From Shewanella psychropiezotolerans (lineage in GTDB: Bacteria > Pseudomonadota > Gammaproteobacteria > Enterobacterales > Shewanellaceae), in assembly GCF_007197555.1 (NCBI RefSeq), contig NZ_CP041614.1, forward strand, positions 5,882,001 to 5,946,000: 64,000 bases of DNA, in the 5' to 3' direction. Both the position numbers and the translations under genes were made by a program. The notes under the pieces were generated by a model. That model made no database searches. It saw nothing but the letters and a program-made list of their open reading frames with translations, and was not told the DNA's origin. Below, in pieces: positions 4,670 through 33,080 of this stretch (position 1 is its first letter; every line of letters begins with the position of its first letter).

Positions 4670-5734
4670 TTACTTATGGTATTGAGCCGACAGCTCATGC
4701 ACAGACTTGATGAATGCGCCAGCATGCTCAGGATCGACATGTTGATGGATACCATGGCCTAAGTTAAATACATGGCCGGCTCCTTCACCGTAGCTAGCAA
4801 GGATTTGATCCACCTCCTGATGAATACGCTCAGGTGAAGCATAGAGTACCGAAGGATCCATGTTGCCCTGAAGCGCGACTTTATGACCGACACGGCGGCG
4901 TGCGTCGCCAATATCTACTGTCCAATCCAGACCCAGTGCATCACAACCTGTCTCAGCCATAGACTCTAACCATAGACCGCCACCTTTAGTGAACAGGGTA
5001 ACAGGAACCTGACGACCGTCGGCATGACGAGTCAGGCCGTCGACGATCTTCTGCATATAACGCAGTGAAAATTCACGGTAGGCATGGTGAGACAGTGCGC
5101 CGCCCCAAGAATCGAAAATCATCAAAGATTGAGCACCGTTAGCGACTTGTGCATTCAGATACAGAATCACAGAATCGGCAAGCTTATCTAACAACATGTG
5201 CAGCGTGGCTGGTTCTTCGTAGGCCATTTTCTTGATCTTTTCGAACGTCTTGCTTGAACCACCCTCAACCATGTAAGTGGCAAGTGTCCAGGGAGAGCCA
5301 GAAAAACCAATCAGCGGGACTTCACCCTTAAGCTCACGACGAATAGTGCTTACGGCACGCATCACATAACCTAACTCATCTTCCGGATCCGGAATGGATA
5401 GCTTCTTGATGGCATCGATAGTGTCGGTCGGACGCTGGAAACGTGGGCCTTCGCCAGTTTCGAAATATAGACCTAAACCCATGGCATCTGGAATCGTCAG
5501 AATATCAGAGAATAAGATAGCGGCATCTAAATCATAACGACGTAGTGGCTGTAGCGTCACTTCACAAGCTAGATCCTGATCCCGACAAAGAGACATGAAG
5601 TCACCGGCCTGAGCGCGGATGGCTTTATACTCTGGCAGATAACGGCCAGCTTGACGCATCATCCAAACAGGAGTCCTGTCGACAGGTTGTTGCAATAACG
5701 CACGTAAATAACGATCATTCTTTAGTTCTGCCAT
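4670..5734 (-). CDS. hemE: Uroporphyrinogen decarboxylase
   Basis: HemE removes the four acetate carboxyl groups of uroporphyrinogen III to give coproporphyrinogen III in cytoplasmic haem synthesis. The 354-residue length is standard for the family. Both signatures are clear: [15 protein letters not shown] near the N terminus, with the substrate-binding Arg residues, and [16 protein letters not shown] in the middle. The catalytic Asp lies in [14 protein letters not shown], and the C-terminal [14 protein letters not shown] is present. Its neighbour on the other side of a 500-bp intergenic region is rsd, an order also seen close by in E. coli. Confidence 0.97.
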
Positions 5735-5947
5735 TTGGCTTGATTCCTAAACTTATAGTGATATCCGCTTGGGTCGCTAGTTTAGCATTTACGTTAATAA
5801 AGTAACCTTAATCTGAGTATTTATGTGACAAAGCCCCCCAGATACGAAATTTCCCCCTATGAGCCGCCTCAGTGCACTCTCCAGCATCATAAAGTAAAAT
5901 ATCCTGACAAAAAATAGTGTTAATGTTCTCAATTTGACAGAAAAAAG

Positions 5948-5976
5948 TTGCACACATCTCCAGCCTTTGGTATAAA
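5948..5976 (+). promoter_or_regulatory. Sigma-70 promoter of a short noncoding transcript
   Basis: A -35 hexamer TTGCAC and a -10 hexamer TATAAA are separated by exactly 17 bases. Both are close to consensus, and no reading frame starts within 100 bases downstream. The predicted start of transcription is about 5983. Confidence 0.7.
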
Positions 5977-5982
5977 AAGTCT

Positions 5983-6075
5983 GCGCTAGCAAGAACAATC
6001 AAGAAGCTCGTCGCATCGAGCCCGCAAAACCTTTACTCGCCCAGCGATAGATTTCTATCGCTGGGCATTTTATTT
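5983..6075 (+). ncRNA. Candidate small RNA between hemE and rsd
   Basis: A near-consensus promoter is followed about 90 bases later by a strong intrinsic terminator. The span holds no ATG-initiated frame. Two hairpins can form: GCTCG/CGAGC at 6006-6021, and the terminator stem at 6039-6066 (11-12 bp, loop about ATTT) followed by ATTTTATTTTC. It does not match Spot 42, RyhB or GcvB as I remember them. An alternative is that it is an attenuated leader of rsd, which starts 160 bases further on. Confidence 0.55.
6038..6075 (+). terminator. Rho-independent terminator of the candidate small RNA
   Basis: The stem GCCCAGCGATA / TATCGCTGGGC can extend by one more G-C pair around an ATTT loop, and a T-rich tail follows on the plus strand. 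It lies upstream of rsd, so rsd probably has its own promoter in 6076-6230. Confidence 0.85.
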
Positions 6076-6236
6076 TCTAGGGGATTCAACTCTCTATCCC
6101 ACTTCGTTTTCTGTATACAAAACAGCCATCTTAACTATTTACGAATATCTCACTTATATCAGCGAAAATGGTTGATCAATACCCTGTTTGTCACCTACAT
6201 TAGAAGTCAGGGAAGCACTTTAAAACGGGAACTATC

Positions 6237-6704
6237 ATGTTAAAACAACTCGAAAAAGCTGAAAGAAAATGGGGCGGCTCTAACACTCTTATCGATCATT
6301 GGCTTAATAACCGTCGCCAATTACTGATCAACTATTGCCAAATTGCCGGTATCCCGCCCTATGAATCGACTGAAAAGTCACTTCCTACCGTTAAGACAGT
6401 TAAAGAATTTTGTGACCTGTTAGTGGACTATGTCTCCGAAGGGCATTTCGAAGTTTATGATCGAGTTGTCACCGCATGTGAGAGAAATGGCACATCGAGT
6501 AAATCTCTTGCGCAGAACCTAGTCCCACGAATAAGTGAAACCACAGATTCGGCTCTAGATTTCAATGAAAAGTATACCGAATCAGTCGATGACCAAATCC
6601 TATATCAACTTGATAAAGATCTGTCATCACTGGGCCATGCAATGGAAACCCGTTTCGAATTAGAAGATGAGCTACTGGAAGTGCTGCACACTAAGCACTC
6701 ATAA
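6237..6704 (+). CDS. rsd: Rsd/AlgQ-family anti-sigma-70 regulator
   Basis: Rsd binds the housekeeping sigma factor and favours use of alternative sigma factors in stationary phase. The 155-residue protein matches E. coli Rsd along its length: MLKQLEKAERKWGGSN aligns with the N terminus, followed by LIDHWLNNRRQLLINYC, FCDLLVDYVSEGHFEVYDRV, and a C-terminal ALETRF-like segment (HAMETRFELEDELLEVL). GGGA precedes the ATG by about 8 bases. Location next to hemE agrees with the enteric arrangement. Confidence 0.9.
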   Translation: MLKQLEKAERKWGGSNTLIDHWLNNRRQLLINYCQIAGIPPYESTEKSLPTVKTVKEFCDLLVDYVSEGHFEVYDRVVTACERNGTSSKSLAQNLVPRISETTDSALDFNEKYTESVDDQILYQLDKDLSSLGHAMETRFELEDELLEVLHTKHS

Positions 6705-6790
6705 TTCTCGAAATAGATATCAGTTATAGCCCATAACTAATAAGAGTAAAGTAAGCACCAGCCAAGCTCCCCGTCTTTCTTGGCTTTCTT

Positions 6791-8113
6791 TTACCGCTCT
6801 TCAAGAATCGCAACTTTCACCATACGGTAAATGATTAATGCGTTGCCCTCACCCGAGGTCAAGATCACGAAATCATCATTTGGGGTAAGCATTACCGAAG
6901 AAGCCCCGGTTAGTTCGCTGTATTTATCCTGACCCTCACTCGAATCACCCGCCTGTAAACTGTGTTTGAAAACCAAATGACCATTCGGTTCTCTGCTGAA
7001 ATAATTCAATGCACCGTCCGCCTCCGCGGTAACAAACAGATGGTGACCGTCAGAGGTCAGTGCCAGGCTTCCGGCTCCAACCAAGGCTAAGCCTGAACCA
7101 AGCTCAGAACTAGAGTCATCAGTGTCCGTTAACGTCTGCATATGCAGATATTGCCCGCTATCCTCACGCTTAAAAACCATAAGCGAACCTGTGCCTGAAC
7201 AAGCTACATACAGCCAATTATTATCTTTAGAGACGAGCAAACTCTGTGGGTTTACTAATGCATCTAAGCCATGTTCTCCTTGATTTATGGTTTGTAGCCA
7301 TACCAAGTTGCCGCTGGAGTCTCTAGTGAAAATGCTTATTGAGTTATCTTCAAATGCCGAGGTAAATACCTGAGAACCGTCCGGAGATACCGTTACTCCC
7401 ACGGCTCCACTTAGCCCGTATTCATCTCCATCGAGTGACTTGTTGTGACTACTGAACACCTGTCTGAGCTTGGCCTTACCATCATCGGTAAGATCGAACA
7501 CGCTCAAGCTACTGCTCTTATAGCTAGTCACGAATACTTGCCTGGGATCGGATGTTATTGCCACATCCCAAGCGCCAAGTAACCCAAGGGTATCCAACTC
7601 TCCAATGGAGCGCTCATCTTTAAATATTCGCTCCGGTCTAAGGCCATCGCTGAGCAGTTGATGAAATGACCAAGTATTATCTTGCCCTCTTTTTAGCACA
7701 AGCAAAGAGCTGCCATAGAAGCTAACGATATAGGCATATTGCCCATCGCCTGAAAGCACCAAATTAGAGGCTCCGGCCAGTACATCCATTTCACTATTTA
7801 GATGTGCAAGACTCAAATCACCACTTCGAATCACTTGCCTTAGGGTCGGCTTGAGCAATTTATCCAGGTCGAAGATAGTCACGGAATCATCATCGGCGCT
7901 CACGATTAACAGCTGAGTCTTATCCGGCGTAATGACGGCGGCGCGCGCATTGTCTAGACCTTCGACCCCAGCTTCACCCTGTCTGAGTACATGCACGGGA
8001 TCCAAACGAATGTCGAAGAGGCTCAGATCTTTATAGTAAGCATCACGAGTGACGGAACTGCATGCCAATAGCAAGAGGCATAGTACGGCGAGTATCAGTT
8101 TTTGATTGAACAT
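6791..8113 (-). CDS. Beta-propeller lipoprotein (lactonase-like fold)
   Basis: The 440-residue protein begins with a lipoprotein signal peptide, LLLLACSS, with the lipidated Cys at about residue 18. The remainder repeats a roughly 50-residue motif (S.D...LYV.S..SGSL.VF.R and similar) about seven times, as in seven-bladed propellers of the 6-phosphogluconolactonase/YVTN type. No catalytic residues can be assigned, so enzyme activity is not claimed. Its ATG at 8113 directly abuts the stop of the restored nitrilase frame (8114-8116), so the two are cotranscribed with the nitrilase first. Confidence 0.75.
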   Translation of the reverse strand: MFNQKLILAVLCLLLLACSSVTRDAYYKDLSLFDIRLDPVHVLRQGEAGVEGLDNARAAVITPDKTQLLIVSADDDSVTIFDLDKLLKPTLRQVIRSGDLSLAHLNSEMDVLAGASNLVLSGDGQYAYIVSFYGSSLLVLKRGQDNTWSFHQLLSDGLRPERIFKDERSIGELDTLGLLGAWDVAITSDPRQVFVTSYKSSSLSVFDLTDDGKAKLRQVFSSHNKSLDGDEYGLSGAVGVTVSPDGSQVFTSAFEDNSISIFTRDSSGNLVWLQTINQGEHGLDALVNPQSLLVSKDNNWLYVACSGTGSLMVFKREDSGQYLHMQTLTDTDDSSSELGSGLALVGAGSLALTSDGHHLFVTAEADGALNYFSREPNGHLVFKHSLQAGDSSEGQDKYSELTGASSVMLTPNDDFVILTSGEGNALIIYRMVKVAILEER

Positions 8114-22579: not shown

Positions 22580-23095
22580 TTAGATAAACTCTTTGTTTTC
22601 GGCTTCGATCTCTTTCGCCGCCTTCAATAAGTAAACAATCAACAGCATCAGCAAAAGGGTGGTCATGTTACCGAATTCAAGCCCAAGCTCTATGCTGGTA
22701 TGTTCAAAAAATTGCTTATGATAGTAGCCAGTCGCCAGATGTTGAACGATCTCTAGCACGATATCCAACACTTTCAGCCATATTAACCAGAGGTAACAAC
22801 GCATCGCCTCATTACCAAAAAACTGTCCCTGCTGAAAGTGACTCAACAGACGTTGCAACCAATAAATTCCCACAAATAAGGTGATTAGTAGCGGCGCCTG
22901 AATAGCCATCAGTACAGCACGGCTTGCACCATCATGATGCCAAAGATCGAGAAACAACATATTGGTCTCGAAACGTATTTCATCCAGCACCAAGTAGCTA
23001 TAGCCCAGATAAACCACCACAGCTGCCGTAGCCACTAATACCAATACCCTGAAAAAACCGCTGATCTTCATCAACTTCTGCATGCTCGCGTTCAT
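22580..23095 (-). CDS. DUF2975 four-helix membrane protein
   Basis: The 171-residue protein from ATG 23095 has four hydrophobic segments, at about residues 15-33, 57-80, 100-120 and 137-156, with the family's middle LLSHFQQGQFFGNEAMRCY block (LF..G..F). An alternative ATG lies at 23107 but sits directly on the GGGA ribosome site, so the inner one is preferred. The XRE regulator gene follows. The pair may form a simple membrane-linked regulatory switch. That is inference. Confidence 0.82.
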   Translation of the reverse strand: MNASMQKLMKISGFFRVLVLVATAAVVVYLGYSYLVLDEIRFETNMLFLDLWHHDGASRAVLMAIQAPLLITLFVGIYWLQRLLSHFQQGQFFGNEAMRCYLWLIWLKVLDIVLEIVQHLATGYYHKQFFEHTSIELGLEFGNMTTLLLMLLIVYLLKAAKEIEAENKEFI

Positions 23096-23282
23096 TGCCA
23101 CAATCATTCCCTTATCTCGATTTCCACAGATTATACCAGACAGAAACATTTTATCATAAAAAAACATTTAATTATCGTTTTACAATAATTATTTTATGTA
23201 TTACTTTAATTGGGAATTCATGGATAACTGATTTGTTGATAAAGCAGATAGGCATCTGAGCTGTTATTTAAAGGAATGAACG

Positions 23283-25349
23283 ATGAAGACACATAAGATT
23301 TTACCTAGCGTACTCTCGACAGCGCTCGCCGCTAGCTTATTTATAACTGGCTGTTCCCAGACTCCATCACCAACTAGCTTGCCAGCTCAGGTCGCCGACC
23401 AAGAGCAAAGTCAGCAAGTTCAACTGCTACCTGTCGAAGCCTTCTTCAACGAGCAAGGGATCAGCGGGCTCAAGAGCTCTAGTGACGGAAAATGGTTAGC
23501 CTTTTTCAAAGAGTATCAAGGTGCGAAAAACCTCTATCTGATGGCGGCAGGTGCAGACTTAGATGCAGCTTTCCCTATAACTACTTCAAAAGAACCGATT
23601 CAGAGTTTTCGATGGTCAAGCCAAAACAATGAACTCTTCTACCTCAAAGACAGTGGCGGTAATGAGAACACGCAAATTTATAAGCTGACTCTGGATGTTA
23701 CCCAAGCCAAGCCAACTGCCAGCGCCATAGCACTAACAAATAATAGCGATATAAGATACGACCTGCTCAAGCAGCCAAAAGACAAGCCCAACACCTTAGT
23801 GGTCATGTCTAATCAAGATAACCCTCAGCAGATGGATCTGTACCGTATAGATATTAATTCCGCCGAAATAACCAATATTTTCTCTAACACCTACGGCTTC
23901 TCTTCTATAGAGACAAACCAACAGGGAGAGCCAGTACTTGGCACCAGCAGTAACCCGGACAATACTTCCGATCTTTACGCCAAAATTGATGGCAAATGGA
24001 CCAGTTTGATTAAGACCCAATTTGGTGAAGACATCGATATTCTTAGCTTTGATGAAGATAACAACTTAGCCTACCTCAGAGCCAATATCCAAGGTCGTGA
24101 CAAGCAGCAGCTATTACGCCTCAATATAACCACAGGAAAACTGCTCACCCTACATCAAGACCCCATGAATGAATCTGATGTCTATGATGTGCTCTTTAAC
24201 GATGAAGGCACACCACTTGCCGTCTCCTATTATGGCGGTCGCCTGCGCACTTATCCGCTGGATAAGACCTTTGCCAGCAACTGGAAAAAAATTAACGACC
24301 ACTTCACTCAAGATATCGAGATAACCATCACCGACAGAAACGAGAAAACCGGCCTGTGGCAGATACATGTCGCCAGTGATGTCGATATGGGTAGCGACTA
24401 TCGCTTTAATGCCAAAACTGGACTGGTGAGCCTGTTACTCGAACAAGAGGTATCGATTAAACCTGAGCTGCTCTCAAAACGTCAATCCATCACTTACCAG
24501 GCGCGAGACGGCGTCAACGTACAAGCCTACCTGACCCTGCCAAAGGGTCAGAGTAAAAACCTGCCAACGATTATTCTTCCCCATGGCGGCCCCTGGGCCC
24601 GTGATTACTGGACCTTAAGTTCAGGCTATTTCAATCCTATCGCTCAATTATTAGCGAACCGAGGTTATGCCGTATTGCAGCCAAATTTCCGCGCATCGAC
24701 GGGCTTTGGTAAACGTTTCCTCAACTTAGGCAATAAGAACTGGGGCACAGGTAGCATGCAGGACGATTTAACCGATGGTGCACACTACCTTATCGACCAA
24801 GGCATTGCCGATAAACAAAGGTTAGGCATCATGGGGGCATCTTACGGTGGCTATGCGGCCCTTGCTGGCGCGACCTTTACCCCTGATCTTTATCAGGCAG
24901 TGATCTCCTATGTTGGGCCTTCGAGTCTTATCACCCTACTCGAATCATTCCCGCCACGCTTTCGTCCATACCTTGGACAGTTTTACAGCGCGGTAGGCGA
25001 CCCAGAAATAGCAGCCGATAGAGAAGATATGCTGGCACGGTCACCCATCAAGTTCGTCGATCGCATCAAGGCACCGCTAATGCTAGTGCAAGGTGCTAAT
25101 GACCCCAGAGTCACCCAGCTTGAATCCGATAATATTGCTCGAGTGATGTATAAGCAAAATCTACCCGTTGAATATATTCTGGCAAAAGATGAAGGCCATG
25201 GATTTAGGAAGCGTGAAAATAAGCTGGCCTATATCGTCGCCATGGAGCAGTTCTTCGCTGAGCACTTGGGCGGACGAGTGGATAACAAGGTCACCCCCTC
25301 ACTCGCCACTCACCTGAACACGCTAAAAGTCGATGTGAGCCGGTTATAA
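23283..25349 (+). CDS. S9-family prolyl oligopeptidase / dipeptidyl aminopeptidase lipoprotein
   Basis: The 688-residue protein has a lipoprotein signal (SLFITGCSQ), an N-terminal beta-propeller (about residues 50-400), and a C-terminal alpha/beta-hydrolase domain. The catalytic triad is Ser near 522 in MGASYGGYAAL, Asp near 606 in GANDPRVTQ and His near 639 in DEGHGFRK. S9 enzymes cut peptides after proline or release dipeptides. Here it should act on the periplasmic or surface side. A GGAATGAACG site precedes the ATG. Its nearness to a putative hydroxylysine pathway could suggest peptide scavenging, but this is a weak inference. Confidence 0.9.
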   Translation: MKTHKILPSVLSTALAASLFITGCSQTPSPTSLPAQVADQEQSQQVQLLPVEAFFNEQGISGLKSSSDGKWLAFFKEYQGAKNLYLMAAGADLDAAFPITTSKEPIQSFRWSSQNNELFYLKDSGGNENTQIYKLTLDVTQAKPTASAIALTNNSDIRYDLLKQPKDKPNTLVVMSNQDNPQQMDLYRIDINSAEITNIFSNTYGFSSIETNQQGEPVLGTSSNPDNTSDLYAKIDGKWTSLIKTQFGEDIDILSFDEDNNLAYLRANIQGRDKQQLLRLNITTGKLLTLHQDPMNESDVYDVLFNDEGTPLAVSYYGGRLRTYPLDKTFASNWKKINDHFTQDIEITITDRNEKTGLWQIHVASDVDMGSDYRFNAKTGLVSLLLEQEVSIKPELLSKRQSITYQARDGVNVQAYLTLPKGQSKNLPTIILPHGGPWARDYWTLSSGYFNPIAQLLANRGYAVLQPNFRASTGFGKRFLNLGNKNWGTGSMQDDLTDGAHYLIDQGIADKQRLGIMGASYGGYAALAGATFTPDLYQAVISYVGPSSLITLLESFPPRFRPYLGQFYSAVGDPEIAADREDMLARSPIKFVDRIKAPLMLVQGANDPRVTQLESDNIARVMYKQNLPVEYILAKDEGHGFRKRENKLAYIVAMEQFFAEHLGGRVDNKVTPSLATHLNTLKVDVSRL

Positions 25350-25355
25350 TACTCG

Positions 25356-25388
25356 TTAGGTCCTAGATCCCTAGGTTCTAGGACCTAA
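25356..25388. repeat. CCTAGG-type inverted repeat after the S9 peptidase
   Basis: The 12-bp arms TTAGGTCCTAGA and TCTAGGACCTAA flank a 9-base centre (25368-25376) between two convergent genes. Like the repeat after fre, it is built from CTAGG words and probably serves as a two-way terminator. Confidence 0.75.
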
Positions 25389-25397
25389 ACACCTTGT

Positions 25398-26891
25398 TTA
25401 CGCACTCACCTCTTCGAGATCAGGCATATCTTCAAGTTTCTCTATCTTAAAGTTGAAGTAGGCATAAGTGCCACTCACTAAGGGGCAGACTAAATTAAAG
25501 AAGGCGTAAGGTAGGTAAGCTATGGTGGCGACACCTAATGTACTGGCCATGTATGCACCACAGGTATTCCATGGCACCAGTGGGCTGGTGATGGTAGCCG
25601 AATCTTCCAAGGCACGGCTCAGATTTACCGCAGCCAGACCGCGCTTAGTGTACTCCACCTTCAACATACGCCCCGGCAAGATGATGGCGATAAACTGATC
25701 TGCGGTGATCAGGTTAGCGCCGATACAAGTCGCCAGGGTGGTGATAATCAAACTTCCGCTGGATGTTACTAAGCCAAGGATACTCTGCAAGATACGCTTA
25801 AGCAGGCCCGTGACCTCCATGATCCCGCCAAATGCCATGGCACAGAGGATCAACCACACGGTATTAGTCATCTGGCTCATGCCACCTCGGCTAAGCAGGC
25901 TATCGAGCACTTCATCACCCGTGTTAGCCACATAGCCATCGAACATGGCTGTCCAAATTCCCTTAACCATGGCCACAATCGGAGGCAAGCTATCATCATT
26001 GGCAAACGCTATGATGCTATCGAACTGGAATAGGGCCGCGCAGATTGCGCCTGCGATGGTGCCGAGAATGACAGTGGGAAATGCCGGCATCTTCTTATAG
26101 GCCAAGATTAATACCACCAACAGGGGTAACAAGAGGTGCACGCCGGGATTAAATTGAGCTTGCAATAAATCCATGGTCAATTGCAGATCACCTGCCTGTC
26201 CGCTGGCCTCACTGGTGAAACCTAAGATCAGGAAACCTATCATGGCGATGATGATGCTCGGTACCGTGGTCCATACCATGTGGCGAATATGGCTAAATAT
26301 ATCGGTTCCCGCTACCGCAGGTGCCAGGTTAGTGGTATCGGACATGGGCGACATTTTATCGCCAAAATAGGCACCACTGATAATGGCACCGGCGGTGATC
26401 TCCACACTCAGTCCCATAGCTGCTGCAACACCAACCAAAGCAATACCCAGAGTACCCGCCACAGTCCAAGAACTACCGATACTTAAGGCAACTACGGCAC
26501 ACAAGAGACAGGATGCGGCATAGAAATATTCAGGGTTGAGCACCAACATGCCGTAATAGATCATGGTCGGCACTGTGCCTGCGAGTATCCAGGTGCCGAT
26601 CAGTGAGCCCACGGCAAATAAGATCAACAAGGCGCCGGTAGCCACGCCAACACTCTTGACGATACCCGCTTCCATCTCCTTCCAGCTATAACCATTCTTC
26701 ACCCCTATCACCAGGGCGATACAAGCGGCCATGATGAGAGCGATCTGGTTTGCACCGTAAGAGCTATCAGACGAATACAGATAGACGGCCGCCGCCAGCA
26801 TAAGCACCAGGGCAAAGATGGGAATGAGGGCGTCGAGCAGGCTAGGCAGCTTGTGTTTGTTTAACTGGGGATCTGATGTCGAGGTCATCAT
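25398..26891 (-). CDS. NhaC-family Na+/H+ antiporter
   Basis: The 497-residue protein has about 11-12 hydrophobic segments and NhaC-family marks: GTWILAGTVPTMIYYGM, IGSSWTVAGTLGIALVGVA, ISGAYFGDKMSPMSDTTNLAP and EDSATITSPLVPWNTCGAY. Members exchange Na+ for H+, and some relatives carry organic acids or amino acids. It lies 219 bp downstream of the kinase-phospholyase fusion on the same strand. It could supply a substrate to that pathway or simply be a neighbour. AGGAATAA precedes the first of two ATGs. Confidence 0.88.
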   Translation of the reverse strand: MMTSTSDPQLNKHKLPSLLDALIPIFALVLMLAAAVYLYSSDSSYGANQIALIMAACIALVIGVKNGYSWKEMEAGIVKSVGVATGALLILFAVGSLIGTWILAGTVPTMIYYGMLVLNPEYFYAASCLLCAVVALSIGSSWTVAGTLGIALVGVAAAMGLSVEITAGAIISGAYFGDKMSPMSDTTNLAPAVAGTDIFSHIRHMVWTTVPSIIIAMIGFLILGFTSEASGQAGDLQLTMDLLQAQFNPGVHLLLPLLVVLILAYKKMPAFPTVILGTIAGAICAALFQFDSIIAFANDDSLPPIVAMVKGIWTAMFDGYVANTGDEVLDSLLSRGGMSQMTNTVWLILCAMAFGGIMEVTGLLKRILQSILGLVTSSGSLIITTLATCIGANLITADQFIAIILPGRMLKVEYTKRGLAAVNLSRALEDSATITSPLVPWNTCGAYMASTLGVATIAYLPYAFFNLVCPLVSGTYAYFNFKIEKLEDMPDLEEVSA

Positions 26892-27110
26892 TTATTCCTT
26901 GTGGTTATGTGTTCTCAGGCCCAGCCAATTCGATAAACGAATACCATTCATCCGATGGCTTATTCTTAGCTAGGGCCGAACATCCTTACATAAAATTAAC
27001 AATGAGATCTAGGTCACATTAGAGCGAGTGTGAATCTAAGCCTGTCTGCCCAGACCGAACTCCCTAGGTAACAGACTATAAATTCAACTCTGAGGTGATA
27101 TCTCCACTAG

Positions 27111-29504
27111 TTATGCATTTATTCGGGATAATCCCTGGAGTAACTGCTCGATAAAATAATCGACATTATCTTTGTTAAAAACCATTGGCGGCTTAATCTT
27201 CAGCACATTATTGAAGGGACCATCGAGACTGAGCAAGATGTTGCGCGACTTAAACCACTCGATTAAGGCTTGCGCCTCTTGGGTCGCCGGGGTCAAACTT
27301 GCATCCTTCACCAGCTCCACGCCGATAAATAAACCTAGGCCCCTGACGTCGCCTATGATGTCGAATGTCTCTTGTAATTTGACCAGACGCATCCGCATAT
27401 AATCGCCGCTATCGCGGGCATTGTGCATCAGGTTTTCAGTATCTATGGTGTCGAGTACCGCCTTGCCGATAGCACATGAGACCGGATTACCGCCGAAGGT
27501 ATTGAAGTACTCCATGCCAGTCACGAAGGCAGCGGCGATCTCCTTAGTGGTGACGACAGCCGCCATGGGATGACCGTTACCGATGGGCTTACCTAAGGTG
27601 ACAATATCCGGCACCACACCTTGGGTCTCAAACCCCCACCAATGAGTGCCGACACGACCGAAGCCCACCTGCACTTCATCGGCAATACAGACACCACCCG
27701 CGGCGCGCACCGCTTGATAAACGGCGTCGAGATAGCCGTTTGGCATGACTAGGTTGCCGCCAACCCCCTGCAGAGACTCACAGATGTAACCGCCTAACTG
27801 CTTACCCTCTTGTTGTAACTGACGAATCGCCTGCTGCACCGGCTCGGCATAGGCAAGGCCCGTCTCAACAGACATGCCTTTATACGGTCCGCGGTAGGGA
27901 TCGGGCACAGGCACGATATGGATATGCTCCGCCGCCCCTTCGCCCCCAGGGCCATTAAACTTATAGGGACTGATCTCAATCGCCTTGTTGGTATTGCCGT
28001 GATAGGCACCATCGACCACCAGCAACTCATCGGATTGTGTCTTGCAGCGCATCAAGCGCATGGCGAGTTCGTTAGCCTCACTACCTGAGTTGACGAACAT
28101 CACCACAGAAAGTGACTCGGGGAAGGTGTCCAGCAAAGCCCGGCTATAATCGAGAATATTGTCATTGAGATAACGGGTATTTGTGTTGAGTTTAGCCATC
28201 TGCGCCTGACCCGCAGCGACCACAGATGGATGACAGTGCCCCACATGACAGACATTATTGACCATGTCTAAGTAAGCGATATTGTTTTCATCTAGCAGAA
28301 ACTGTCCCTGGCCGCGCTCGATAATTAACGGCTGCTCATAGGAGACACTCAAGGTCTTGAATAAGCGTTCACCTCTCTGGCTGATAATGTCTCTGCGTCG
28401 CTCAGATGAGATGTTATCGGTGCCTTGGTCTAATGGCCCGCTCTGTTTTTCCCCTTCGTTTGCTGTCAGGCACAGGCGCTGCAACCCAAAGCCAACACTC
28501 TTAGCATCTAGTTTTAGCAAGGTAGTGATGGCTGCCCAGGCAGGTTTAGCGGTCACCAACAGGTATTCATTATCTGGCTCGGATAAAATCGCTTCACAGG
28601 AGTTGCACACGCTAACCGCTAAACGTGCGGCAATAAGAGGCAGCAAGGCCCACAGCTCGGCGCCATTGAGCGGACGCTCCTGGTGATAGGCCAAGGTGAT
28701 GGCCTCTATGATCGCCAGTGGCGAGTCAGCTCCTAAGATGGCGTAGGCACAAGCGATAGCCAGCTCATTGATCTGATGGCTATATACCATGTCACCAAAA
28801 TCTATCAAGCCTATCACCTCGGCGTCCAAGCTAGCGCTGCTGAGTAACAGGTTATAGTCATTCACATCGTTGTGGATCACCCCTTGTGGCAGCTCAGCCA
28901 TAAAGGGGATCACCTGCTGTTCGAAGCCGGATAGAATCTTTAGTACCTGCTGACGCAGGCTCTGGTCGCTGATTAAACCTACCTTTGATTCGATGACAGC
29001 GTTCGCATGCTTGAGATCCCAGTCGAAATGCCGTGAAGCAGCCCTGTGGGAGAAGCCTTGCAGACTAAGATCCAGCCTGCCCAACAAGGTGCCAAGTTGG
29101 CTGTGATGATGACCAGCCAGCGCCTTATGGTCACAGTAGAACACGCCGGGCACATAGCTAAGCAGGCGCATGGGTCTCGGCCTGCCATGTCCGTCCTTTA
29201 GAGACGTGATCTCATGACCTGCCAGGTTTTTGATCACCTCAGGTAACAGATAGGGCTGCAAGTCTTGCCCGTTAAGATAATTCATCACAGCATTTTGCAT
29301 ATCCAACTCGGCCAGTGGCTCATCCGCATTAGCAATCTTGAGGATAAAACGTTTCCCCTGTGTATCTGTAAGCAGAAAATTTAGATCCACATAACCGGGC
29401 AATGATTTCACCTCTACAGCCATCCGGAAATGCTCCTGCACCAACGCCTTCACTGTGGATGGTGAATATTCAACGACCTTAGTTTTCAACTCTTGCATTG
29501 CCAT
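27111..29504 (-). CDS. Kinase-phospholyase fusion (APH domain + class III PLP enzyme)
   Basis: The 797-residue protein joins two enzymes. Residues about 1-345 are an APH-type kinase with the catalytic loop HNDVNDYN (His211, Asp213, Asn218) and the metal motif DFG at Asp235, resembling hydroxylysine kinase (HYKK/AGPHD1). Residues about 365-797 are a class III aminotransferase fold with NSGSEANELA, IADEVQ (Asp609) and the PLP Lys639 in LGKPIGNGHP. It closely resembles the phospholyases ETNPPL/PHYKPL, including MEYFNTFGGNPVSCA and VLKIKPPM. The fusion could phosphorylate 5-hydroxylysine and eliminate phosphate and ammonia to give aminoadipate semialdehyde. Ethanolamine is an alternative substrate. 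Saccharopine enzymes lie divergent to it. Confidence 0.88.
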   Translation of the reverse strand: MAMQELKTKVVEYSPSTVKALVQEHFRMAVEVKSLPGYVDLNFLLTDTQGKRFILKIANADEPLAELDMQNAVMNYLNGQDLQPYLLPEVIKNLAGHEITSLKDGHGRPRPMRLLSYVPGVFYCDHKALAGHHHSQLGTLLGRLDLSLQGFSHRAASRHFDWDLKHANAVIESKVGLISDQSLRQQVLKILSGFEQQVIPFMAELPQGVIHNDVNDYNLLLSSASLDAEVIGLIDFGDMVYSHQINELAIACAYAILGADSPLAIIEAITLAYHQERPLNGAELWALLPLIAARLAVSVCNSCEAILSEPDNEYLLVTAKPAWAAITTLLKLDAKSVGFGLQRLCLTANEGEKQSGPLDQGTDNISSERRRDIISQRGERLFKTLSVSYEQPLIIERGQGQFLLDENNIAYLDMVNNVCHVGHCHPSVVAAGQAQMAKLNTNTRYLNDNILDYSRALLDTFPESLSVVMFVNSGSEANELAMRLMRCKTQSDELLVVDGAYHGNTNKAIEISPYKFNGPGGEGAAEHIHIVPVPDPYRGPYKGMSVETGLAYAEPVQQAIRQLQQEGKQLGGYICESLQGVGGNLVMPNGYLDAVYQAVRAAGGVCIADEVQVGFGRVGTHWWGFETQGVVPDIVTLGKPIGNGHPMAAVVTTKEIAAAFVTGMEYFNTFGGNPVSCAIGKAVLDTIDTENLMHNARDSGDYMRMRLVKLQETFDIIGDVRGLGLFIGVELVKDASLTPATQEAQALIEWFKSRNILLSLDGPFNNVLKIKPPMVFNKDNVDYFIEQLLQGLSRINA

Positions 29505-29636
29505 TCTGCCTCTGGTTTCTTCACTTAAGCTGTGATGTTAATCTTGTGTAAATAGGGATATTGTATACACTAACTGTTTTTCAATAGCAATTTATCGAGT
29601 AGTCTCTAACGAGAGACTTGTAGGAGAGCTTGCGGT

Positions 29637-30733
29637 ATGACAAAAGCCCATATTTGGTTACGCGCGGAATCTAAACCCTTAGAAGAACGCATTGCCCTTA
29701 CACCCGATGTCGCCCGGAAACTCTTGGAGGCGGGGTTCAAGATCACTGTCGAAGAGTCCCCCTTGAGTGCCATCCCAGCCCAAGAATACCAAGGGATAGG
29801 TTGCGACATTGTGCCAGCCCACAGCTGGCAGCAAGCCCCACAAGACACCATCATCTTGGGCCTCAAAGAACTCAGTGAAGATAATTGGCCTCTGGTTCAT
29901 CGTCATATTCATTTCGCTCATGTGTATAAAGAGCAGCAAGGCTGGCAAGATGTGCTGCGCCGCTTCAAGACCGGCAAAGGCGAGCTATACGATCTAGAAT
30001 ATCTGGTGGATAATAATAATCGCCGTGTGGCCGCCTTCGGCTACTGGGCCGGATTTGCCGGCGCTGCCGTGGCGCTTAAGGCGTTCGGCAAACGTCAGCA
30101 GCTAGATTCCACAGCACAAACAGACCAGCCAGTATTGGATAAGTTAGCTTCGATGCCAAGCAAGCAGGCGCTGGTCGATGATGTGGCCGAGTCACTGAGT
30201 CCGCTAGCACGACCACCCAAGGTATTAGTGATTGGCGCTAAGGGCCGAAGCGGACGCGGCGCCGTGGAGATGGCTAAGAGCGTAGGCGCTGAGGTTACGC
30301 AGTGGGACATGGCAGAGACTCAAGTAGGCGGCCCCTTCGAAGATATTTTAGACTTTGATGTACTGGTCAACTGCGTGTTCGTACAAGAAGCTCTGCCGCC
30401 GTTTATTACCTTGCCCATGCTCGAGACCAATGGCATAGAGCCACGACGCCTGGCCATTATCTGTGACGTCAGTTGCGACCCATATGGTACTTACAACCCC
30501 TTGCCTATCTACGCAAGCTGTACCACATTTGATAAGCCGTGCCTGCGTATCATAGAGGGGGCAATCCCGTCGACTTGATCGCCATAGACCACTTACCCTC
30601 GCTGCTGCCGGTCGAGAGCAGTGAAGATTTCTGCCAGCAACTCTTGCCACATCTACTGCAACTGGACAATCTCAATCTAGGCGTGTGGCAAAAAGCGAAT
30701 AAAATTTTTACCGATAAGCTCAGTCAGGTATAA
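29637..30733 (+). pseudogene. Saccharopine dehydrogenase (lysine-forming type), frameshifted as read
   Basis: This enzyme type interconverts saccharopine + NAD+ with lysine + 2-oxoglutarate. The first frame has the AlaDH/PNT-like N-terminal domain (IWLRAESKPLEERIALTPD), the YDLEYLVDNNNRRVAAFGYWAG block and the nucleotide-binding VLVIGAKGRSGRGAVEMA, and it stops at 30578. One extra G in the five-G run 30557-30561 restores EGGNPVDLIAIDHLPSLLP and leads to 30733, 365 residues in all, near the yeast Lys1 length. The break is probably a base-call error. It lies 132 bp from the divergent kinase-phospholyase start. Confidence 0.88.
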
Positions 30734-30757
30734 CAACTAAATTAAGAGATAATCAAC

Positions 30758-31932
30758 ATGCAAACAGTTCATTGGTTAGGTGCAGGACTCTCGTCACTGC
30801 CGGGAATACGCAAGGTCGCACAATCGGGTCAACAGCTGATCCTCTGGAACCGCACCTTAGCTAAGGCCGAGCAAGCGGTTGCCAGCTTAGGCATTAAGGT
30901 TCCGACCAAGCAGTTAAATTGGCTTGCTCTGGAAGCCGAAGTTAACCCAGGCGATCAGGTGATCTCCATGTTGCCAGCCACCTTGCATCTGCAGGTTGCC
31001 GAGTTATGTCTTGGGCTCAAAGCCCATTTCATCTCCAGCAGCTATGTGTCACCGGAAATGCAGGCCTTGCATGATAAGGCCAAGAGCCTAAACCTCTGCT
31101 TCGTCAATGAAGTGGGGCTAGATCCCGGGCTAGATCACCTGCTGGCCCACGCCTTGATCGCCGAATATCAGGCATCGGATAAATTCGACAAGCAAAACCA
31201 GCATAGCTTCCGCTCATACTGCGGCGGCTTCCCTAAAGTCGCCAACGATTTCAGATATAAGTTCTCCTGGTCACCACTGGGGTACTAAAAGCCCTCAAGT
31301 CTCCGGCGCAATGGACCCAAGACGGCGAAATACAGCGTACCGAGAAACCTTGGTTGGCCCTATCAGATTTCGATATGCGCATGAGTGATGCCAGTCTGGA
31401 GACGTTCCAGGCTTATCCAAACCGAGACTCTATTCCTTTCCAGCAGCAATATGGTTTTGCAAGCGACTGGAACATTCAGGAATTTGTTCGCGGCACGCTG
31501 CGCCTCAATGGTTGGTCAGACGCCTGGAGTGAGCTGTTTACCGAGGTAGACAATTTCGAAATAGATAGTGCAGTAGGTGATGCGGGACTGGCCCGTTTAG
31601 CCGAGCTCAGTGACGGACTCTGGGACAAGCACCAATACGACAAGGGTGAAGCCGACCGCGTGGTGCTATCGGTTGAGCTGGAAGTCAAAGATCCTCAAGG
31701 TAAGCAGACAGTCTGGCATTCAAGTTACGGCGTAGATGAAGCCGGTGACGAGCGCGGCTCAGCCATGGCCCGTCTGGTTTCTCTCACAGTGGCTATCGCC
31801 ATCGAATCTTTAGTCGCCGGTGAGCTGGCTATCGGTGTCTCTCCGGCTCCACACGATGAGAAGACAGTGACCAAGTGGCTTAATGAGCTGGATAAGATGA
31901 ATGAGAAGGTGTTCCGTCATCAGCTGGTCTAG
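30758..31932 (+). pseudogene. Saccharopine reductase (Lys9-like), frameshifted as read
   Basis: This enzyme type joins aminoadipate semialdehyde and glutamate to form saccharopine, or runs the reverse. The first frame has a Rossmann start (VHWLGAGLSSLPG), FISSSYVSPEMQAL and the hallmark NEVGLDPGLDHLLAH, and it stops at 31288. One extra G in the four-G run at 31279-31282 gives KFSWSPLGVLKALKSPAQW and continues through FVRGTLRLNGW to 31932, 391 residues. It starts 24 bp after the lysine-forming enzyme, so the two form an operon. The break is probably a base-call error. Confidence 0.88.
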
Positions 31933-31990
31933 CTAACTGCCACAGAAATTAGCCAACTAGAGTTCATTGTCGAAATATATCCACGACAAA

Positions 31991-32012
31991 AGGAAGCATA
32001 TTTATGCTTCCT
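31991..32012. terminator. Hairpin after the saccharopine operon
   Basis: The perfect palindrome AGGAAGCAT / ATGCTTCCT has a 4-base loop. The T-tract is weak, so the termination strength is uncertain. Confidence 0.55.
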
Positions 32013-32076
32013 TGAACAACTCAACTAAATAATCTAATGTTGAATTATATTGAATCGTTTAAAGGGAATTGACGCA

Positions 32077-32325
32077 ATGGTATCGACTAGAAATCTCCAT
32101 CACTTACAAATCAAATCAACGAGTCTCACATTAATTTCAATTGTGTTCTCTTTCTTCATCACTGGCTGTTCGAGTCATCATGCCCAGTCAACCTCTATGG
32201 ATTTAAGCACAGAGATTTTCAAGGCTCAACAACGAAGAGAGTCCAGTACCCCACCTCCATTGCGGGATGGTAAAGTCACCCATCAGGATGTCGCTAGCGG
32301 AGTGCTCAGCAGCATAATCAATTAA
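32077..32325 (+). CDS. Small lipoprotein of unknown function
   Basis: From ATG 32077 the 82-residue product has a hydrophobic signal (LISIVFSFFITGC) with a lipobox FITGC, then a polar mature part of about 50 residues ending VASGVLSSIIN. AAAGGG lies about 9 bases before the ATG. I do not recognise it. Similar small lipoproteins are frequent in Shewanella. It appears to be a single-gene unit. Confidence 0.6.
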   Translation: MVSTRNLHHLQIKSTSLTLISIVFSFFITGCSSHHAQSTSMDLSTEIFKAQQRRESSTPPPLRDGKVTHQDVASGVLSSIIN

Positions 32326-32501
32326 GTTTGCCAAAAAAATATATGGCTAACTACTCGTCGAGTATCAATTTTCATTTGTTATGCAAGCGAGCCCTCTTCA
32401 GTTCGCTTTATTTTGCTCTGCCATTAACTTAGAATCACCGCCATTCGAGTTATCTCAACTCAACCCTAATGACAGAAAGCTCAGGCTTCAAGGCAGAATC
32501 A

Positions 32502-33080
32502 ATGAAACTTACCGCACTCACTCAGCCTCTCTACGATCACCTTTATCGTGACATCCTCCAGTTTCGCTCTACTTTCGATTTACCAAGCGAAGATGAGAGC
32601 ACATTGGATGATAAAGCCGATACACTGCACACTTCATTGGCCATCGAAGAGCTGACCGAGCTTGCCGAAGCCGACAGCCGCATGGAGCAGGCCGATGCTA
32701 TCGTCGATTCTGTCTATGTCTTGATGGGCCGCCTGGTTCACTTAGGTGCAACTCAAGTCAGTGACCGCATGGAAATCAGCTACGTCATCGACCTACTGTT
32801 ACATGTGGCCAAGAACCGCGAGATCGACTTCATCACCTGTTGGGACGAAGTTCATTCGAGCAACATGAGCAAGGTGTGTCGCAACGAGAAAGAACTTGAA
32901 GAGACTATCGAGTTTTACGCCAAGCAAGGCGTCGAGATCGTCGGCAGCACCAAGGGCGACTTCATTATCGCTAAGTGCGCTAATGATGTAGATATGGCAG
33001 GTAAAATCGTACGCCAGGGCAAGGTGCTAAAGTCGGTTTACTATCGTCCGGCAGATCTAGCAAAGCTCGTTAAAGCTTAA
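32502..33080 (+). CDS. PRA-PH/MazG-superfamily nucleotide pyrophosphohydrolase-like protein
   Basis: From ATG 32502 the product is 192 residues (an ATG 11 codons earlier is also possible). The first part has the all-alpha NTP pyrophosphohydrolase pattern: LAIEELTELAEADSRMEQADAIVDSVYVLMG holds the metal-binding E..E...(12-28)E..D arrangement. The C-terminal part (FYAKQGVEIVGSTKGDFIIAKC, KIVRQGKVLKSVYYRPADL) is an added small domain seen in HisE-like proteins of this group. It probably hydrolyses a nucleotide triphosphate or a phosphoribosyl compound. The substrate is not known. Confidence 0.78.
   Translation: MKLTALTQPLYDHLYRDILQFRSTFDLPSEDESTLDDKADTLHTSLAIEELTELAEADSRMEQADAIVDSVYVLMGRLVHLGATQVSDRMEISYVIDLLLHVAKNREIDFITCWDEVHSSNMSKVCRNEKELEETIEFYAKQGVEIVGSTKGDFIIAKCANDVDMAGKIVRQGKVLKSVYYRPADLAKLVKA

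Follow-up and report, generated by a model that had tools for sequence, protein, structure and literature searches.

A kinase-lyase fusion divergent from saccharopine genes in Shewanella psychropiezotolerans: probable core of a hydroxylysine utilization pathway

What might a bacterium gain from a kinase and a class III PLP enzyme joined in one protein and placed next to two saccharopine genes? The question is raised by a stretch of 64,000 nucleotides from the deep-sea-type bacterium Shewanella psychropiezotolerans (here called the window), in which the initial annotation saw a full gene set for turning 5-hydroxylysine into lysine. The best-known source of hydroxylysine, a modified amino acid, is animal collagen, which stores a great deal of organic nitrogen in the sea and in soil. 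We postulate that the locus is probably the core of a hydroxylysine utilization pathway supplied by this collagen, its substrates and direction being predictions from sequence. The fusion gene was confirmed, by ORFs and domain matches, to be divergent from both saccharopine genes, and a gene for an NhaC-family transporter lies downstream of it on the same strand. The parts of the locus are as follows.

25398..26891, minus strand: NhaC-family transporter (TIGR00931, 424.3 bits; cut-off, 370)
27111..29504, minus strand: fusion of an APH-type kinase (N-terminal) and a class III PLP enzyme (C-terminal); 797-aa ORF
29637..30578, plus strand: broken L-lysine-forming saccharopine dehydrogenase (LYS1-like), with its last ~58 residues off-frame, to about 30730
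30758..31288, plus strand: LYS9-like saccharopine reductase, piece 1 (Sacchrp_dh_NADP, 48.8 bits; Sacchrp_dh_C positions 1-55)
31354..31932, plus strand: LYS9-like saccharopine reductase, piece 2, in another frame (Sacchrp_dh_C positions 93-263, 84 bits)

Both halves of the fusion lie in one intact ORF, as had been proposed, with an APH domain at residues 37 to 274 (77.9 bits; cut-off, 23.2) and an Aminotran_3 domain at residues 390 to 789 (258.8 bits). The kinase half has the APH fold and an intact catalytic motif, whose residues we take to be D213, N218, and D235, invariant in 27 of 27 aligned fusions. The lyase half has a class III PLP fold nearest to that of phospholyases and contains the PLP lysine. 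The closest solved relatives are an ethanolamine-phosphate phospho-lyase (6tor; 461 bits, 51% identity across 395 residues) and a bacterial phospholyase (5g4i; 316 bits), and A1RDF1 also carries a phosphoethanolamine name. Matches to the PLP half filled a fold search of the whole fusion. The name of 6tor is a counterpoint to a hydroxylysine pathway. A closer tie of the kinase half to animal HYKK than to other APH kinases is no more than possible: this half had no PDB relatives at E 0.1, and its homologs were mostly unnamed (one, P0166 at 38% identity, is called hydroxylysine kinase among the 120 listed of 419).

The LYS1-like ORF matches the lysine-forming saccharopine dehydrogenase 3ugk over residues 5 to 306 (285 bits) and AlaDh_PNT_N at 89.9 bits, and an intact relative aligns over its residues 1 to 314 in the frame of this ORF and over 311 to 368 in another frame. 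The LYS9-like gene has both Pfam domains (NADP-binding and C-terminal), spread over two ORFs in different frames that cover the separate parts of one Sacchrp_dh_C profile listed above; an intact relative matches 1e5l (159 bits). In relatives, the two saccharopine genes are single ORFs of 355 to 387 and 382 to 425 aa (387 aa for the LYS9-like gene of S. benthica DSM 8812), except for a 316-aa LYS1-like copy that runs off its contig and two weak Flavobacterium LYS9-like matches (455 and 463 aa). Since neither gene has a single intact frame in the window strain, the complete functional gene set that was first annotated is not supported there. The steps as far as aminoadipate semialdehyde (AASA) are intact in sequence, and either a true interruption or an assembly error affects the step to lysine.

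Gene neighborhoods were compared across 77 related loci, which are the best 80 of 591 candidates minus three and are biased to close relatives. The three dropped were L038 and L054, Shewanella loci near others that were kept, and one locus where ORF calling and clustering gave no fusion ORF. Families were labeled by applying curated models to one or a few representatives per annotated cluster, and all other members were assigned with our own profiles. Six further Shewanella genomes, as well as Endozoicomonas, Colwellia, and Thalassotalea, have the saccharopine pair close to the fusion, so the clustering is not accidental; the gene order is divergent in Shewanella and Endozoicomonas and different in the other two genera. 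Chance clustering was rejected on this recurrence and on the co-occurrence of the families across genomes.

Beta-galactosidases were found at 37 of the 77 loci and YgjK-like alpha-glucosidases at 22, the two together at 22; AASA dehydrogenase occurred at 13, a LYS1-like gene at 10, an NhaC-type ORF (own profile) at 9, and HglS at 5. Within the retrieved loci, LYS9-like genes occurred at 12, including weak matches in two Flavobacterium loci (L061 and L099; 35 to 36% identity). Neither glycosidases nor AASA dehydrogenase or LYS1-like genes were present at 36 of the 77 loci in the DNA covered, which extends less than 4 kb upstream of the fusion at 10 of the 77. AASA dehydrogenase and HglS lie near the fusion in Chitinophaga and Pedobacter loci, and an FAD/Fe-S protein resembling D-2-hydroxyglutarate dehydrogenase was detected at one Pedobacter and four Flavobacterium loci. 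Judging from record titles, the kinase-lyase fusion is found across many phyla. The recurrence beside it of AASA-consuming enzymes and of glycosidases that fit collagen supports the proposal that the fusion produces AASA, most likely from 5-hydroxylysine, which we prefer to ethanolamine as the predicted substrate because of these neighbors. They likewise favor phosphohydroxylysine as the phosphate ester used by the lyase half.

The fate of AASA appears to differ among lineages. As initially annotated, AASA dehydrogenase is absent beside the locus (0 of 8 ORFs scanned at 22580-33080). No protein in the same genome exceeded the cut-off of 730 for this family (P6CDH, NF050084), the best scoring 305.6 bits, and 19 other aldehyde dehydrogenase matches, some of them pieces, were found; another aldehyde dehydrogenase could oxidize AASA, a counterpoint to the pathway proposed here. 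A search of 97 Shewanella genomes, run without its own positive control, found no AASA dehydrogenase, and saccharopine is therefore the sole exit seen there. Some Colwellia and Thalassotalea genomes likewise gave none.

For a broader survey, 50 of the 80 loci were chosen and 49 genomes searched (L046 was left out), among them three Shewanella genomes, one of which (G113) has a broken fusion. AASA dehydrogenase alone was present in 24, a LYS1-like gene alone in 12, both in 7, and neither in 6; at the strict family cut-off the counts were 23, 13, 6, and 7. Of the 31 genomes counted for the dehydrogenase, 29 exceed the family cut-off, and the 19 counted as LYS1-like include one (G124) with only a partial match at 46%. 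In a sample of the order, AASA dehydrogenase alone was weakly enriched with the fusion (4/8 versus 44/287, p = 0.03), by Fisher tests that ignore kinship and the tendency of linked genes to move together; two lyase-only proteins (G215 and G267) and one 33% match (G173) were left out of the fusion count. Co-occurrence of the families, set beforehand as a test, was found. The 24 genomes with the dehydrogenase alone imply breakdown, so the fusion does not serve lysine formation in general. The annotated route from hydroxylysine to lysine is favored for Shewanella and for some Colwellia and Thalassotalea, since searches of those genomes gave no AASA dehydrogenase, and salvage of hydroxylysine as lysine is our best reading for the Shewanella lineage.

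In the pathway that we propose, free 5-hydroxylysine would be imported, perhaps by the NhaC-family protein, a candidate importer or exchanger of hydroxylysine or lysine. The APH half would then phosphorylate the 5-hydroxyl, and the PLP half would strip phosphate and ammonia to give AASA, which equilibrates with piperideine-6-carboxylate. In the form of the pathway that Shewanella shares with some relatives, the LYS9-like reductase would couple AASA to glutamate, forming saccharopine, from which the LYS1-like dehydrogenase would free lysine. In other fusion-bearing bacteria, AASA dehydrogenase may replace or join this last step, leading to breakdown via 2-oxoadipate.

Other explanations must be weighed against this scheme. 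The window strain may hold a decaying remnant, which we consider possible though somewhat doubtful: its saccharopine genes would be true pseudogenes with only the fusion and transporter in use, a state compatible with a hydroxylysine pathway at the lineage level. Frame breaks in both saccharopine genes point this way, as does a related Shewanella genome (G026, locus L123) in which the fusion is broken and the saccharopine genes persist only as remnants. The dN/dS values of the saccharopine pieces relative to S. benthica DSM 8812 argue against decay, being still low (0.09; 0.16 and 0.02) like that of the fusion (0.13), and any gene loss would therefore be recent. Splits also affect other genes (3 of the 21 in common with one S. 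benthica DSM 8812 contig are split in the window and 0 of 21 in reverse, and two aldehyde dehydrogenases elsewhere in the genome look split), and a sequencing or assembly cause is possible.

An unlikely alternative concerns direction, with the fusion yielding AASA from hydroxylysine and the saccharopine pair running in reverse, from lysine through saccharopine to AASA, so that both amino acids are broken down together and an unrecognized aldehyde dehydrogenase oxidizes the AASA. Both saccharopine reactions are reversible, 7 of 49 fusion genomes have both AASA enzymes, one locus (L045) has both beside the fusion, and the other aldehyde dehydrogenases of the window strain could supply the oxidation. 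This reading is opposed by the search of 97 Shewanella genomes that found no AASA dehydrogenase, by the best score in the window strain (305.6 bits) lying far under the cut-off of 730, by the 12 of 49 fusion genomes with a LYS1-like gene alone, and by the LYS1-like enzyme itself, which scores 45 bits against aminoadipic semialdehyde synthase and 285 bits against lysine-forming chains. Less probable still is a fusion that phosphorylates ethanolamine and then acts as a phosphoethanolamine phospho-lyase, with unrelated saccharopine neighbors. The name of 6tor speaks for that role, whereas the kinase half matches APH but, at E 0.001, none of the choline/ethanolamine kinase families, and the acetaldehyde product would need none of the enzymes that recur nearby (AASA dehydrogenase, saccharopine enzymes, HglS, beta-galactosidase, and YgjK-like glucosidase). 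On this neighborhood evidence, ethanolamine use was rejected as the main role.

Returning to hydroxylysine, its collagen form bears Glc-alpha1,2-Gal, and PMC8626586 ties a vertebrate alpha-glucosidase, PGGHG (GH65), to that sugar. Escherichia coli YgjK (GH63) is linked to the same disaccharide by the title of structure 3w7w. Neither a beta-galactosidase nor a YgjK-like alpha-glucosidase was seen beside the fusion at the mapped Shewanella loci; the window strain has relatives of both away from the locus. Its genome also has a GH2/SSF/GalK group fairly near an M9 collagenase, which could be an ordinary galactoside operon. The presence of collagenase and YgjK_N in Shewanella is supportive and nonspecific, as they also occur in 51 and 31, respectively, of the 90 genomes without an intact fusion (in this tally, G026 with its broken fusion is among the 90, and the 36% match in G065 is not counted as LYS1-like). 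The wider finding is a probable system for using collagen glycosyl-hydroxylysine with two exits. We lean toward the view that bacteria of several phyla carry it as a dedicated set for uptake, deglycosylation (first glucose, next galactose), phosphorylation, and elimination of phosphate and ammonia to AASA, followed by either exit (oxidation towards 2-oxoglutarate or lysine salvage via saccharopine), and that Shewanella has a lysine-salvage form without local glycosidases.

The enzyme kinds are individually known; in the open-licence literature searched, we found no description of their combination as a bacterial gene set for using hydroxylysine and its attached Glc-Gal. If the proposal is true, it provides testable genes for the entire hydroxylysine route and a genomic marker of collagen feeding, adds hydroxylysine to the possible sources of lysine, and suggests what a fusion present in many phyla may do.

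Among known systems, the nearest is that of animals, whose hydroxylysine kinase (HYKK/AGPHD1) and phosphohydroxylysine phospho-lyase (PHYKPL) were reportedly identified by Veiga-da-Cunha in 2012, in work that is also said to have noted bacterial kinase-lyase fusions. The likeness extends to the two predicted reactions, an APH-type kinase, and a class III PLP ammoniophospholyase, whereas the bacterial form is one fused protein with nearby exits to lysine or towards 2-oxoglutarate. Databases already name an S. psychrophila relative 5-phosphonooxy-L-lysine phospho-lyase, and UniRef gives the name hydroxylysine kinase to a kinase from Pseudomonas that also has an M23 domain. In fungal lysine biosynthesis through aminoadipate, LYS9 and LYS1 carry out the last two steps; the enzymes that take AASA through saccharopine to lysine are alike (the 1e5l match of the intact relative and the 3ugk match above), whereas AASA here would derive from hydroxylysine and in fungi derives from homocitrate and aminoadipate. 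Lysine breakdown via 2-oxoadipate uses HglS, according to PMC7286885, and the same AASA dehydrogenase and HglS occur at Chitinophaga and Pedobacter fusion loci; the entry there would be hydroxylysine by way of the kinase-lyase, and the HglS route is absent at the Shewanella locus. Like PGGHG and YgjK, the alpha-glucosidases at bacterial loci would act on Glc-alpha1,2-Gal, a predicted substrate, and these loci differ in pairing a YgjK-type GH63 enzyme with a beta-galactosidase (GH2 or GH42) next to the fusion.

The fusion lies in the single-contig, 6,449,204-base genome of Shewanella psychropiezotolerans, of which the window is part, and we identified the following genes at its locus.

27111-29504, minus strand: fusion, one unbroken 797-aa ORF with APH and Aminotran_3 domains
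Opposite strand to the fusion: LYS1-like saccharopine gene (similarity search)
Opposite strand to the fusion: LYS9-like saccharopine gene (domain match)
Behind the fusion, on its strand (minus): NhaC-family transporter (family match)

The fusion of S. benthica DSM 8812 is 93% identical to that in the window. Sequence and fold searches both placed the lyase half closest to 6tor, an ethanolamine-phosphate phospho-lyase titled human, and to A1RDF1, a bacterial phospholyase. The residues that we take to be the PLP lysine and the kinase motif are invariant in 27 aligned fusions. An M23 peptidase domain was also detected on relatives of the kinase half (P0150, P0155, and P0166) and of the lyase half (P0256 and P0259). 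Genes of the S9 prolyl oligopeptidase family flank the locus in several Shewanella (window 23283-25349; loci L037, L117, L118, and L122), possibly a link to peptide use.

To survey related loci, we fetched the best 80 of 591 candidates, called ORFs, and clustered them. Among the 77 loci retained, 13 had an ORF of the L-piperidine-6-carboxylate (aminoadipate semialdehyde [AASA]) dehydrogenase group near the fusion; its cluster representative scored 824 bits, versus a family cut-off of 730, and among its solved relatives are chains that bear the name alpha-aminoadipic semialdehyde dehydrogenase (4x0t, 542 bits). LYS1-like genes occurred in 10 of the 77 loci, LYS9-like genes in 12 (two of them weak), HglS (2-oxoadipate dioxygenase/decarboxylase) in 5, and an FAD/Fe-S protein, which we read from the domains of one representative as resembling D-2-hydroxyglutarate dehydrogenase, in 5. 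The substrates of all these enzymes are AASA or its products, and none is acetaldehyde; ethanolamine is therefore unlikely to be the main substrate of the fusion. Three loci from Pedobacter and Chitinophaga (L080, L087, and L093) combine the fusion with HglS, AASA dehydrogenase, a beta-galactosidase, and a YgjK-like alpha-glucosidase. L080 additionally encodes the D-2-hydroxyglutarate dehydrogenase-like protein; judged by gene content, this single locus would provide a nearly complete route to 2-oxoglutarate.

The initial annotation proposed a 5-hydroxylysine-to-lysine salvage locus whose enzyme families should co-occur in other genomes, and this co-occurrence was borne out. In an order-level sample of 295 genomes, at least one AASA enzyme (AASA dehydrogenase or LYS1-like) was found in 8/8 fusion genomes versus 46/287 others (Fisher p = 8e-7, with no correction for kinship). 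Genes of the LYS1-like type were found in 5/8 versus 5/287 at E 1e-60 and in 5/8 versus 0/287 at ≥59% identity, while AASA dehydrogenase alone was weakly enriched (4/8 versus 44/287, p = 0.03). Of 97 Shewanella genomes, 7 carry the intact fusion, and it is these 7 that have the LYS1-like gene; one further match, in addition, is distant.

Lysine salvage would be one exit for the fusion's predicted product but not the sole exit across bacteria. Fifty of the 80 loci were submitted to a genome survey and 49 genomes were searched: 24 had AASA dehydrogenase without a LYS1-like gene, 12 showed the reverse, 7 had both, and 6 had neither (23, 13, 6, and 7, respectively, when only dehydrogenases above the family cut-off were counted). 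No AASA dehydrogenase was found in any of the 97 Shewanella with one protein query at E 1e-120, a search that lacked a dedicated positive control. The family profile gave the same picture: it did not detect the enzyme in S. psychropiezotolerans or in the three other Shewanella among the 49 (G097, G098, and G113), and none of its 48 positives in the order sample was a Shewanella. LYS1-like genes and a glycosidase occur together in 7 loci, and 5 of these genomes (L040, L043, L050, L101, and L115), including two MAGs, gave no AASA dehydrogenase match. In genomes without the dehydrogenase, the simplest flux would run from hydroxylysine through AASA and saccharopine to lysine.

The pathway idea of the initial annotation is a good one, with more support than that annotation could have known of; in this strain, however, the pathway is either interrupted or wrongly assembled. 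The LYS1-like frame ends ~58 residues early, its remaining end being readable in another frame, and the LYS9-like gene is split across two frames; unbroken copies are present in the 6 remaining intact-fusion Shewanella as well as in Endozoicomonas, Colwellia, and Thalassotalea. Of 21 genes common to the window and one S. benthica DSM 8812 contig, 15 matched at full length and 6 did not, 3 of the latter (the saccharopine pair and a gene of 509 aa) being split over two window frames; in the reverse comparison, from the S. benthica side, all 21 matched fully. The low dN/dS of the saccharopine gene pieces and the other splits in the window and genome indicate that the breaks are either recent or assembly errors. 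At other sites in this genome, two aldehyde dehydrogenases seem to fall into two pieces each, and another match has an internal stop (G000:C1:838662-839965, 1984456-1985606, and 1864218-1865588), so frame breaks in the strain or assembly are not confined to the fusion locus. A decayed version of the locus, with a fragmented fusion and saccharopine remnants (the start of one gene and the end of the other), occurs in the MAG Shewanella sp. DT_112 (L123/L054, about 4700-7040). Values of dS to S. benthica DSM 8812 range from 0.06 to 0.70 among adjoining genes (window 23283-31932 versus L037), which suggests recombination in this region.

A link to collagen in Shewanella is supported by gene content. 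All 7 genomes with an intact fusion had M9 collagenase matches, versus 51/90 others (p = 0.02), with 5 or 6 each (average 5.3 versus 1.6); at least 4 matches were found in 7/7 versus 11/90. YgjK_N was similarly enriched (7/7 versus 31/90, p = 0.001), and a YgjK-like protein of S. psychropiezotolerans shares 39% identity with that of a fusion locus (L048) across 777 aligned residues. A GH2 enzyme of this genome, 52% identical to fusion-adjacent GH2 enzymes, is grouped with genes for a symporter and for a galactokinase; about 3 kb separate the galactokinase from an M9 collagenase ORF.

G000:C1:5510119-5522837 (L155:8120-11428 to L153:6776-9838): relatives of GH2 beta-galactosidase, sodium:solute symporter, and galactokinase, near an M9 collagenase ORF (~1020 aa)

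These findings on collagen may be taken as support rather than proof, because intact-fusion genomes may be large and peptide feeding for other reasons.

In animals, hydroxylysine kinase and the phospho-lyase are separate proteins. A 2012 paper on these animal enzymes is cited in PMC8154272. The S. psychrophila relative of the fusion is named 5-phosphonooxy-L-lysine phospho-lyase in the database; database names already reach the fusion's family, and each kind of enzyme is therefore known. Searches of open-licence papers yielded no account of these genes combined in one bacterial locus. The wider system looks like one for the utilisation of collagen glycosyl-hydroxylysine, with lysine salvage as one of its two exits.
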